Assembly (NCBI GenBank): GCA_026702755.1
Contig: JAPPBX010000103.1
Span: forward strand, 1 to 40,264
Length of the DNA stretch: 40,264 nucleotides
Direction: 5' to 3'
Origin: Candidatus Poribacteria bacterium
GTDB lineage: Bacteria; Poribacteria; WGA-4E; WGA-3G
Shown here: positions 7,880-15,657 of the stretch, in pieces
Layout of the letters: every line of letters begins with the position of its first letter
Numbering within the stretch: position 1 is the first letter of the stretch
Made by a program: the position numbers and the translations under genes
The notes under the pieces: generated by a model
Told to the model about the DNA's origin: nothing
The model's input: the letters and a program-made list of their open reading frames with translations, nothing else
The model's database searches: none

Positions 7880-7925
7880 AGAAAGAAACGTTGACCCATG
7901 CTGTCGTCCGAAAGGAGTATCGAAA

Positions 7926-8729
7926 ATGGCGAAAGCCCTCTCACTTGTTGCTTATAACGATTTAGAAAGCCAAGTTGAGGCATTGGAAAGGGATGGGTAC
8001 GTCTATTTCCCCAGTGTGCTTGATGCCGATGAAATTGCTGACTTGCGCGCAACCATGGATCGATTAGAGGCAATTCCAGCGTCTCATGATCGGGACGAAA
8101 CACTTGAAAATGGCGATGCATTCCTCCACAAGCTCATCAGCAACTCGTTTAATCGAGACCTCTTGTATCTCCAATTTCTTGACAAATCACCGGTTTTTGA
8201 AGTCGCTGAGGCGGCACACGGTGAGGATTGTCATTGCATCGGTATGCATTCGTGGTTGACAGGACCCGGGCGGCCGGATCAAGGGTTACATACCGATTGG
8301 CTACCAATCAGTCTACCTGCGGAGATTCGTTCCGATCCACGCGTCAAAATCCCAATCTTCATCACTACCGCTCATTATTATCTCAACGATATGTATGAGG
8401 AGTTAGGACCGACGAAGTTTGTGCCGGGCAGCCACTTCTCAGGATGCTCCCCGAACGGGGCAACTGAGTGGAATAACCGGGGGGAAGAGAGTATCCTATG
8501 CAATGCAGGGGACGTGGTGCTTTTCCGCAGTGAAGTCTGGCATCGTGGCTCTGCCAATACCAGTAACGAAATTCGTTATCTCATGCAGGTACACTACGCC
8601 AATCGGATGATTACACAGAAATACCCGCCCTATCTGAATAAATTTCAATTTGATGAATCGATTCTCGCCCAAGCTAACCCTCGACAGAGACGGCTCCTTG
8701 GCGATCATCGACCGAGCAATTACGATTGA
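7926..8729 (+). CDS. Phytanoyl-CoA dioxygenase family protein (copy 1)
   Basis: A 267-residue Fe(II)/2-oxoglutarate-dependent oxygenase of the PhyH family. The facial triad is visible as H122-x-D124 (GLHTDWLP) and H206 (VWHRGSANTS), with R217 placed to bind 2-oxoglutarate. Such enzymes hydroxylate small organic acids, amino acids or lipids; the substrate here is unknown. AAAGGAG precedes the ATG by eight bases. It is about 87 percent identical by eye to the protein at 10057, with identical length, so the pair is a recent duplication. The main divergence is at residues 52-73, close to where substrate-contacting segments lie in this fold, so the copies may differ in substrate. Confidence 0.9.
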   Translation: MAKALSLVAYNDLESQVEALERDGYVYFPSVLDADEIADLRATMDRLEAIPASHDRDETLENGDAFLHKLISNSFNRDLLYLQFLDKSPVFEVAEAAHGEDCHCIGMHSWLTGPGRPDQGLHTDWLPISLPAEIRSDPRVKIPIFITTAHYYLNDMYEELGPTKFVPGSHFSGCSPNGATEWNNRGEESILCNAGDVVLFRSEVWHRGSANTSNEIRYLMQVHYANRMITQKYPPYLNKFQFDESILAQANPRQRRLLGDHRPSNYD

Positions 8730-9922: not shown

Positions 9923-10030
9923 GACTTACGCAAAATTCCTTCCTTTCCTCATAGAATCGGAAGATTGGAAGGATGGAAGACTTGGGTTGGAAGATTGGAA
10001 GGCTCCCATCCTTCCTTTCCTTTCATCCCA
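9921..10030. repeat. Dispersed GGAAGGATGG hairpin repeat, copy 1
   Basis: A purine-rich intergenic element starts with GGACTTACGCAAAATTCCTTC. It contains the perfect pair GGAAGGATGG (9967-9976) and CCATCCTTCC (10006-10015), around a loop of further GGAAGATTGGAAG units. A diverged copy with the same 10-bp stem lies at about 15503-15657. Confidence 0.7.
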
Positions 10031-10056
10031 ATATTTGCTTTGAAGGAGTACTGAAA

Positions 10057-10860
10057 ATGTCGAAAGCTCTATCACTTGTTGCCTATAACGACTTAGAAAG
10101 CCAAGTTGAAGCCCTTGAAAGGGATGGTTATGTTTATTTCCCGAACGTGCTTAATGCTGAGGAAATCGCTGAATTGCGTGCAATGATGGATCGATTAGAG
10201 ACGATCCCTGAGTGTTTGGATCGGCACCAAGTGCCTCAAAATGGCGACGGATTTCTCAACAAAATCATCAATAATTCGTTTAATCGAGACTTGCTGTATC
10301 TCCAATTCCTTGACAAATCACCTATTATTGAGGTTGCCGAGGCGACGCACGGTGAGGATTGTCATTGTATCGGTATGCAATCGTGGATAACGGGACCGGG
10401 ACGTCCGGATCAGGGGTTACATACCGATTGGCTGCCAATCTCCCTACCGGCAGACGTTCGCTCCGATCCACGCGTTAAAGTCCCAATCTTCATCACTACC
10501 GCTCATTATTATCTCAATGATATGTCCGAGGAATTGGGACCGACGAAGTTCGTGCCGGGCAGCCATTTCTCAGGGTGCTCTCCAAACGGAGCAACCGAGT
10601 GGAACAATCGGAGTGAAGAGAGTATCCTATGCAATGCAGGGGATGTCGTGCTTTTCCGCAGCGAAGTCTGGCATCGGGGTTCTGCCAATACGAGTGACGA
10701 AACCAGGTACCTCTTGCAGGTACACTATGCCCAACGGATGATTACACAGAAATATCCACCCTATTTGAACAAATTTCAGTTTGACGAATCTATCCTCGCG
10801 CAAGTGAACCCTCGGCAGAGGCGGCTCCTCGGAGATCATCGACCAAGCAATTATGATTGA
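10057..10860 (+). CDS. Phytanoyl-CoA dioxygenase family protein (copy 2)
   Basis: A 267-residue Fe(II)/2-oxoglutarate oxygenase paralogous to the protein at 7926. H122-x-D124, H206 and R217 are all kept. An upstream in-frame ATG (9973) would add 28 residues encoded by the dispersed repeat. The start at 10057 is preferred because AAGGAG stands ten bases before it and the protein then aligns end to end with copy 1. About 34 differences in 267 residues separate the copies, clustered at 52-73 (PECLDRHQVPQNGDGF against PASHDRDETLENGDAF). A small membrane protein gene follows, almost without a gap. Confidence 0.9.
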   Translation: MSKALSLVAYNDLESQVEALERDGYVYFPNVLNAEEIAELRAMMDRLETIPECLDRHQVPQNGDGFLNKIINNSFNRDLLYLQFLDKSPIIEVAEATHGEDCHCIGMQSWITGPGRPDQGLHTDWLPISLPADVRSDPRVKVPIFITTAHYYLNDMSEELGPTKFVPGSHFSGCSPNGATEWNNRSEESILCNAGDVVLFRSEVWHRGSANTSDETRYLLQVHYAQRMITQKYPPYLNKFQFDESILAQVNPRQRRLLGDHRPSNYD

Positions 10861-11955: not shown

Positions 11956-12022
11956 TGGAAATCAGTGATTAGCAGAAAATCTCCTGAACGTTGTATTAGC
12001 AGAACCTCCAATGATTTGGTAT

Positions 12023-12048
12023 CGGGCGAGGGGACCTCGCCCCTACGA
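12023..12048. repeat. 26-bp GC-rich hairpin repeat, copy A
   Basis: CGGGCGAG...CTCGCCC followed by CTACGA. Read on the minus strand it begins TCGTAGGGGCGAGG. It matches the element at 14563-14588 in 22 of 26 positions. The stem differences are compensatory (A to G on one arm, T to C on the other), so the hairpin is conserved. Here it is intergenic. Confidence 0.75.
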
Positions 12049-13540: not shown

Positions 13541-15481
13541 ATGCCGCACACAAAACCGACCCTATACCCACCAAAACCGTCCTCATCCGTCGGCTGGCGG
13601 TCTATAGCAATTGGACTTATTCTCATCCCCATCAATTGTTATTGGATCACCTATATTGAACTTGTACAATATTCCGCGCAGCCCACCATTGTCTCGCTTA
13701 TTTTCACGGTTGTTTTCAACGTCCTTGTGTTGATAGGACTCAACCAAATATTTAAGCGATTCCTGCCTCGGTTCGCACTATCCCAAGGTGAACTCCTTGT
13801 CATCTATGTCATGTTATCCGTTGCATCAGCGACAGCGGGACACAGCATGATGGAGATTTTGGTTCCCACATTGGGGCACGCGTTCTGGTTCGCAACGCCG
13901 GAAAACGATTGGAAAGATCTATTTTGGCGGTATATTCCGAGATGGCTTGCCGTAGTGGACAAGGACGTTCTTTCGGGCTACTACGAAGGAGATTCTACAC
14001 TACATACAAAGCAGCATCTGTTGGGCTGGTTAACGCCTGTGATCAATTGGTTTGCCTTCCTCTTTGCGCTGCTTTTTGTTATGCTTTGCATCAACCTTAT
14101 CGTGCGGAAACCGTGGACGGAAGATGAGAAGCTGGCGTATCCGATTATCCAACTTCCAGCGCGAATGACAAGCGAAGGTTTTTTCACGAATCGGCTGATG
14201 TGGCTCGCTTTCGGGCTTGTGGCGATTTTCGACATTATTAACGGCTTGCACCACATTTTTCCGGCGATACCCTCCGTATACGAGAAAGCGTACCGTTTCA
14301 GATTCACAGAGAAACCCTTCTCCGCAATGGGGTGGCTGAGATTGGGGATTTATCCTTTTGTTTTAGGCATCGGATTTCTGATTCCGTTGGATCTGCTGTT
14401 TTCGAGTTGGTTTTTCTTTTGGGTGTGGAAGGGGCAACAACTCATCGGAAGCGTCGCGGGTTTAGAAGGAACGGGCTATCCTTATATCAACTATCAGGGA
14501 TTTGGTGCGTATATGGGCATCTTTCTGATTGCTGTTTGGAGGGGCAGAAAATACCTTCAATACGGGCGGGGTAACCCCGCCCCTACGAGCCTAAAGGTCC
14601 ATTCCACGTCTACGCGGGATGAACCGATGTCGCCTCGAATTCTTGTTCTCGCGCTTATTGCCGGTGTTGCATTTCTGACCCTTTTCTGTTTGAAAGCAGG
14701 GATGTCCCTCTGGGCGATTCTTGTTTTCTTTGGACTTTACTTTGCCTTTTCAACGGCAGTTTCCCGCATGCGAGCGGAACTCGGATCACCGATGCACGAC
14801 TTGCACTATACGGGACCAGAACGGGTCATGGTCGCTGCTGTAGGCACCCGTCGGTTGGGACCGAACAATCTTTCAATGTTCTCTTTTTTCTGGTTTTTTA
14901 CGCGCACCTTCGATTCGCATCCGATGCCCCACCAACTTGAAGGTTTCAAACTCGCCTCAACGTCAGGCATCCGGAGCCGTTTTATGCTGTTTGCGATCCT
15001 TATTGCGCTGGTTGTCGGTATCCTTTCGCAATTTTGGGCACTTATATCCATCCCTTACCGACTCGGTGCTGTACACGAGATGTCTCGCGTGCCAATCGTA
15101 TACGGGTCTGAACCGTGGCGGAATTTGCAGAATTGGTTAACACATCCACTTTCCCCGGACTATTGGGCGTTAGGATTCACCGGAATTGGTCTACTGTTCT
15201 CCCTTTTCCTCATGCTGATGCGAATGAAGTTTTTCTGGTTCCCTTTTCATCCGGCGGCGTATGCTACTGTGTGCGGGAGCTGGGCGGTCAATTACATCTG
15301 GTTTAGTCTGGGGATCGTATGGGTGCTGAAATTGGTGCTGCTGAAATATGGTGGGCGAAATGCGCATCGAAAGGCGATGCCATTTTTTCTGGGATTGATA
15401 CTGGGACAATTTACCGTCGGGAGTCTATGGACGATTCTGGGCATGGTGTTTAATATACCGACTTATGGCATTTGGCCGTAG
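13541..15481 (+). CDS. DUF6785/OPT-like polytopic membrane protein
   Basis: A 646-residue membrane protein with roughly 12-14 hydrophobic segments. It carries motifs typical of the DUF6785/DUF6784 proteins of Planctomycetes-like and Poribacteria-like genomes: SQGELLVIYVMLSVASATAGH (about 86-106), RKPWTEDEKLAYPIIQLP (about 188-205) and SRMRAELGSPMHDL (about 407-420). The family is remotely related to oligopeptide transporters and its role is unknown. No Shine-Dalgarno precedes the only in-frame ATG (TAA lies 36 bases upstream). Residues about 341-350 (YGRGNPAPTS) are encoded by a dispersed 26-bp hairpin element that elsewhere is intergenic, so the gene seems to carry an in-frame insertion in a cytoplasmic loop. 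Confidence 0.75.
   Translation: MPHTKPTLYPPKPSSSVGWRSIAIGLILIPINCYWITYIELVQYSAQPTIVSLIFTVVFNVLVLIGLNQIFKRFLPRFALSQGELLVIYVMLSVASATAGHSMMEILVPTLGHAFWFATPENDWKDLFWRYIPRWLAVVDKDVLSGYYEGDSTLHTKQHLLGWLTPVINWFAFLFALLFVMLCINLIVRKPWTEDEKLAYPIIQLPARMTSEGFFTNRLMWLAFGLVAIFDIINGLHHIFPAIPSVYEKAYRFRFTEKPFSAMGWLRLGIYPFVLGIGFLIPLDLLFSSWFFFWVWKGQQLIGSVAGLEGTGYPYINYQGFGAYMGIFLIAVWRGRKYLQYGRGNPAPTSLKVHSTSTRDEPMSPRILVLALIAGVAFLTLFCLKAGMSLWAILVFFGLYFAFSTAVSRMRAELGSPMHDLHYTGPERVMVAAVGTRRLGPNNLSMFSFFWFFTRTFDSHPMPHQLEGFKLASTSGIRSRFMLFAILIALVVGILSQFWALISIPYRLGAVHEMSRVPIVYGSEPWRNLQNWLTHPLSPDYWALGFTGIGLLFSLFLMLMRMKFFWFPFHPAAYATVCGSWAVNYIWFSLGIVWVLKLVLLKYGGRNAHRKAMPFFLGLILGQFTVGSLWTILGMVFNIPTYGIWP
14563..14588. repeat. 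26-bp GC-rich hairpin repeat, copy B, inside a gene
   Basis: CGGGCGGGGTAACCCCGCCC followed by CTACGA. This is a near copy of the intergenic element at 12023 with compensatory stem changes. It lies within the membrane-protein reading frame, which stays open through it. Confidence 0.8.
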
Positions 15482-15502: not shown

Positions 15503-15657
15503 CAGGATAGGCGCGAAATTCCTTCTTTGCTGGAGGAATCGGAAGCTTGGAAGATCGGAAGGATGGAGAACACTTCAGGGCACCGTCTCCCATCCTTCCA
15601 TCGAACAGGAAACGGACAGAGGAATGGAAGTAGATTTCTTCCATTCTTCCATCCCTA
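15503..15657. repeat. Dispersed GGAAGGATGG hairpin repeat, copy 2
   Basis: Begins GGATAGGCGCGAAATTCCTTC. It holds the same perfect 10-bp stem as the copy at 9921 (GGAAGGATGG 15557-15566, CCATCCTTCC 15590-15599) and a longer run of GGAAG/CTTCC units, ending near CTTCCATCCC. No gene lies in the 256-base gap 15482-15737. Confidence 0.7.

Follow-up and report, generated by a model that had tools for sequence, protein, structure and literature searches.

The window analysed here, a stretch of 40,264 nucleotides of a Candidatus Poribacteria genome (contig JAPPBX010000103.1), carries on its plus strand a gene (13541..15481) for a membrane protein of 646 residues with matches to DUF6785 (E 1e-155) and DUF6784 (E 2e-30), whose nearest relatives are all from Ca. 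Poribacteria. An earlier note on this DNA had reported a GC-rich palindrome within this gene at 14563-14588 and again at 12023, and both copies are indeed found there. The focal unit is 25-27 nt long (14560/14563 to 14586/14587): as a 27-nt unit on the minus strand it spans 14560..14586, and the asymmetric REP core covers 14563-14587. A left stem arm GGGCGGGG (14564..14571, plus strand) and a right stem arm CCCCGCCC (14575..14582, plus strand) enclose a TAA loop at 14572-14574, and the plus strand from 14560 to 14586 reads ATACGGGCGGGGTAACCCCGCCCCTAC, that is, ATAC-GGGCGGGG-TAA-CCCCGCCC-CTAC. The minus strand of these positions, CGTAGGGGCGGGGTTACCCCGCCCG, forms a GTAG-tagged hairpin with a stem of 8 bp; on the plus strand the tag appears as CTAC at 14583-14586.

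The second copy (12020..12046, minus strand) is intergenic and also asymmetric, with the structure TATC-GGGCGAGG-GGA-CCTCGCCC-CTAC and its tag at 12043-12046; relative to the focal copy one stem pair is altered on both sides (A-T for G-C). As single strands, both fold better than shuffled sequences (z of -2.9 for the focal and -4.0 for the second copy). No empty site for the second copy is readable in the sister genome and the other relatives compared, since none of them is syntenic with the window upstream of 12172. That upstream region also holds a 300-nt direct repeat (7912-8211 and 10043-10342, 80% identity) that reflects a duplicated gene region, and elsewhere in the window a purine-rich repeat, GGAAGATYGGAAGGATGGAR, occurs twice (9959-9978 and 15549-15568) and not at all in shuffles.

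The focal element encodes residues 341-349 of its host protein, YGRGNPAPT, in agreement with the earlier estimate of about nine residues. It is present in 2 of 23 genus orthologues of the gene (84-100% DNA identity), those of the window genome and its sister G032 (L104; 95.5% identity across the gene); the other 21 lack it, so these residues are not ancestral. The earlier note had proposed this alignment and a genome-wide count, and had staked its reading on what they would return: 21 congeneric orthologues prove to lack the element, which is thus derived in the DUF6785 gene, and the genome holds at least 51 sites of the same family (see below). Most relatives have a gene 18 nt shorter: between the same flanks, the empty sites carry 9 nt (e.g. 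GAATTTATT, GAATCTATT) where the occupied ones carry the 27-nt unit, in frame, a net gain of six codons that turns Q-NLL-G into Q-YGRGNPAPT-S, with a junction placement that is uncertain by about 2 nt, less exact than for the symmetric copies described below, in a copy carried by two genomes only. An AlphaFold model (pLDDT 51) places the element between two predicted helices, in a loop, and the copy probably arose in this variable loop before the window species parted from its sister. Nothing points to an advantage for the host protein.

The same gene has changed in other ways among its orthologues. Three of them (L123, L124, L125) carry an insert of about 96 nt, unrelated and in frame, a few bases downstream of the focal site. 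The orthologues of three further species (L118, L120, L111) have a different family member close to the gene start, where it replaces 6 nt. In L111 the loop that holds the focal site also contains a TAG codon, which may mean a broken gene or readthrough at that point.

A dispersed family in two forms

A search of the window's own genome with GGGCGNGGNNNCCNCGCCCCTACG at up to 3 mismatches gave 71 matches (38 and 33 on the two strands, perfect palindromes being counted twice because they match on both), whereas the reversed control pattern gave none in the same search. Widening the search to related stems and merging overlaps left at least 51 separate sites. The number of pattern matches per genome varies from 0 to 150 across 38 congeners; all of these genomes are MAGs, our own being 96% complete with 4% contamination. 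A blind census of GTAG-tagged hairpins over 460 kb found 18, hardly above the 0-12 found for other tags; generic hairpin counts being uninformative, we relied on the specific pattern. We found no viral contigs carrying the symmetric element.

Thirty of the 51 copies are symmetric, consisting of GTAGGGGCGAGGTNACCTCGCCCCTAC or stem variants of it, 27 nt long with the tag at both ends. The remaining 21, which include both window copies, are asymmetric, with GTAG at one end only, and among these are three inverted pairs with their GTAG ends outward (C6:18941/18968, C96:48800/48823 and C126:27756/27787), the classical build of GTAG-REPs. Stem variants are complementary, at pairs 9-19 (GC in 34, TA in 12) and 10-18 (AT in 29, GC in 15).

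A search for ORFs and Pfam matches places 15 of the 51 copies firmly within genes, most of the 15 host ORFs matching Pfam families, and four further copies near N-termini, where the start codon is uncertain, would raise this to 19 (about 30-37%); this is the fraction that the earlier note had wanted counted. The hosts are unrelated to one another and are entered in both orientations: gyrA, transketolase, priA (two copies), a fusion of an S-methyltransferase with MTHFR (MetF), where the element lies between the two domains, an ABC transporter, a GT2 glycosyltransferase, a C25 protease, an AI-2E transporter, the C-terminus of an adenosine deaminase, and others. The two forms differ in this respect: 13 of 30 symmetric copies are intragenic vs 2 of 21 asymmetric ones (Fisher P = 0.012), the other 19 asymmetric copies lying outside genes. 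Symmetric copies encode peptides of the RGEVTSPL or VGARSPRPY type, and their third frame holds TAG; the focal asymmetric copy is read in that third frame, which stays open because its tag is on the antisense strand.

Tolerance of the unit within genes would be favored by its length, 27 nt or nine codons, by the possibility that the symmetric form reads stop-free in two frames out of three, and by encoded peptides (RGEVTSPL, VGARSPRPY, YGRGNPAPT) that may suit loops and linkers, while damaging events would be purged by selection. The location as such has precedent: intragenic GTAG-REPs, including some in replication and repair genes, are already known (PMC3733652).

Occupied and empty sites

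In all 20 comparisons of occupied with empty sites, 4-27 nt of target have given way to the 27-nt unit; a site with zero loss was found in 0 of 20. The losses are 4, 6 (three events), 9 (five), 11, 13, 15 (three), 18 (four), 21 and 27 nt, each measured against the single empty relative that scored best at that site; the length sometimes changes with the relative chosen (C81, C99 and the gyrA tail), as expected in variable linkers, and in hypervariable targets such as the gyrA tail later indels could mimic target loss. All genic losses are multiples of three, whereas the three events taken as intergenic lost 4, 11 and 13 nt; one 15-nt event (L280) is not assigned to a gene. The clearest case, C45:28395, is a swap of 27 nt for 27 nt in which the ancestral bases are nearly the same in three relatives, and other strong ones (L232 vs L236, L244 vs L242, and C15:27848 vs G021) have flanks of about 90-97% identity. 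Two sites with composite or unreadable empty counterparts, C15:26155 and C62:11008, were left out of these 20; the former could be a gain without loss, but the site is composite. Element ends and target ends share 26 bases in total, where random window segments would be expected to give 12.4 (P = 0.002), a result that is suggestive only, since it depends on junction placement.

The earlier note had spoken of an element inserted in frame. In frame and derived it is, and at several sites the copies are recent; as for the insertion, the aligned sites show that target is lost, and the element is better described as an overwrite of a few codons. We infer a strand-replacement route, in which copies would spread as a discrete short hairpin strand, perhaps supplied by a Y1/HUH (IS200-type) transposase. 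This strand may pair at microhomologies of a few bases with an exposed single strand, for example at a replication fork; by copying or joining, it would then take the place of the short stretch that the microhomologies enclose. Our tentative proposal, to which we give slightly less than an even chance, is that such microhomology-flanked short-patch replacement of host DNA carries a 27-nt, frame-neutral palindrome across a bacterial genus and into its genes as well.

Ordinary REP transposition, in which a Y1 enzyme (RAYT or IS200-like) inserts a hairpin strand without loss and small adjacent deletions follow, favored by selection on protein length, is a possible but rather unlikely account. A hairpin with a GTAG tag is a known type of substrate for these enzymes, and the window's own genome has five Y1 transposases, four of them IS200-type. 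A different GTAG palindrome, GTAGGTGCGGTTTGTAACCGCACC (L060:2097, on C21), lies about 240 bp from the start of one Y1 gene, and its stem type recurs elsewhere in the genome. However, no clean addition is seen at any of the 20 sites, and since an added 27 nt keeps the frame, selection on frame does not explain the missing class; the exact 27-for-27 swap with intact flanks would need a perfectly matched second event; and target was lost at intergenic sites too. 

The Y1 genes also bear on the strand-replacement route proposed above. Against it, none of them reaches the NCBIfam RAYT cut-off, and none is flanked by the 27-nt REP in our genome or at the congener loci examined, which are part of the congener hits. 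In its favor, Y1 genes are present, and one of the IS200 type (C21:2352-2696) adjoins an array of about 50 bp of GCCCC-GTA-GGGGC hairpins that share GTAGGGGC with the REP, with similar units at its homologue in the sister genome. In L061:1892-2455 (on C21) and in L188 (sister G032), such units form a tandem array (period 50/100) ahead of an IS200-type Y1 gene, which could be the mobilizer locus of a related repeat.

If a small DNA fragment were captured at a double-strand break and sealed in by non-homologous end joining after end trimming, a discrete insert together with target loss would be explained, but we consider this improbable: no Ku homologue was found in any of the 38 congeneric genomes by a search whose control was positive in Bacillus subtilis, an objection that does not reach alternative end joining.

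Quite improbable, in our judgment, is that selection for a role at the RNA or DNA level, such as terminator or mRNA stabilizer, keeps the hairpin within the gene. Its strength and the complementary differences among copies would fit such a role, and the earlier note had taken compensatory stem changes as a sign that the hairpin is maintained, drawing on two non-orthologous copies. Such changes do exist between copies, but at one orthologous site, in the MTHFR (MetF) fusion, several stem pairs are mismatched without compensation among 9 distinct sequences. The compensatory differences therefore set subfamilies apart, which is what one expects when each new copy derives from a hairpin whose arms already match, and the occurrence of copies in unrelated genes and in both orientations also argues against a selected function. 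In three of the MTHFR-fusion linkers (L279, L286, L288) the element is longer by 21 nt that hold CTTGGGTGTTTCTTC, a sequence also present in other dispersed GTAG repeats (L366), which suggests nested elements. A chance GC-rich palindrome in ancestral coding sequence was rejected as having a negligible probability, given 71 matches vs 0 for the control and the absence of the element from 21 orthologues.

Relation to other small repeats

GTAG-REPs are defined as stem-loops of 20-40 nt with GTAG at one end that are dispersed and form inverted pairs (Di Nocera et al., 2013, PMC3733652). Like them, the Poribacteria family consists of dispersed hairpins that end in GTAG, some of them in inverted pairs and some within genes, with subfamilies set apart by complementary stem changes; it differs in having a symmetric 27-nt form tagged at both ends, in the share of its copies within genes, and in that no matching REPtron was found. 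That paper does not mention the phylum Poribacteria, and a word search of its main text returned no target replacement. We think it fairly probable that the focal hairpin belongs, as one copy among many, to a GTAG-tagged REP family of Ca. Poribacteria, a judgment that covers the whole explanation, spread by strand replacement included.

The earlier note had likened the element to Rickettsia palindromic elements, which are about 150 bp long or CGTC-tagged (Ogata et al., 2000, 2002, as reviewed in PMC10969869). The likeness holds for in-frame entry into coding sequence and the many copies in unrelated genes, apparently at tolerant surface or linker positions, whereas the 27-nt size, the GTAG tag and the inverted pairs are those of GTAG-REPs, the unit replaces its target, and no sequence relation is seen. 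Common descent with the Rickettsia elements was rejected, as tag, size and taxon all differ. The small dispersed repeats of cyanobacteria, hairpin units of 21-27 nt, are reportedly regarded as very small mobile elements and are said to show complementary stem changes; they resemble the Poribacteria element in size, hairpin and stem changes but differ in sequence and taxon.

With regard to replacement, short-patch double illegitimate recombination in Acinetobacter reportedly replaces short stretches of the genome by unrelated short DNA. At E. coli microdiversity loci, short segments are likewise replaced by unrelated short DNA, with palindromic units among the variable segments (PMC2884548). 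In both systems the incoming DNA is arbitrary, whereas in Poribacteria a single 27-nt unit with fixed ends comes in. Short-patch illegitimate replacement may apply here too: target was lost at every site compared, and terminal bases are shared above the random level, a measure in which junction placement matters. What is new is a REP family in this phylum with such an intragenic share, together with short-patch replacement.

The movement of REPs and other tiny palindromes is still largely inferred, and dozens of occupied and empty pairs in conserved genes make the junctions readable; these junctions point to replacement, which classical transposition does not predict. The swaps of nine codons in essential proteins (gyrase, transketolase and PriA) also form a natural set of tests of how foreign peptides are tolerated. 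If our reading is true, this would be one of the smallest mobile elements known, rewriting codons rather than interrupting them.
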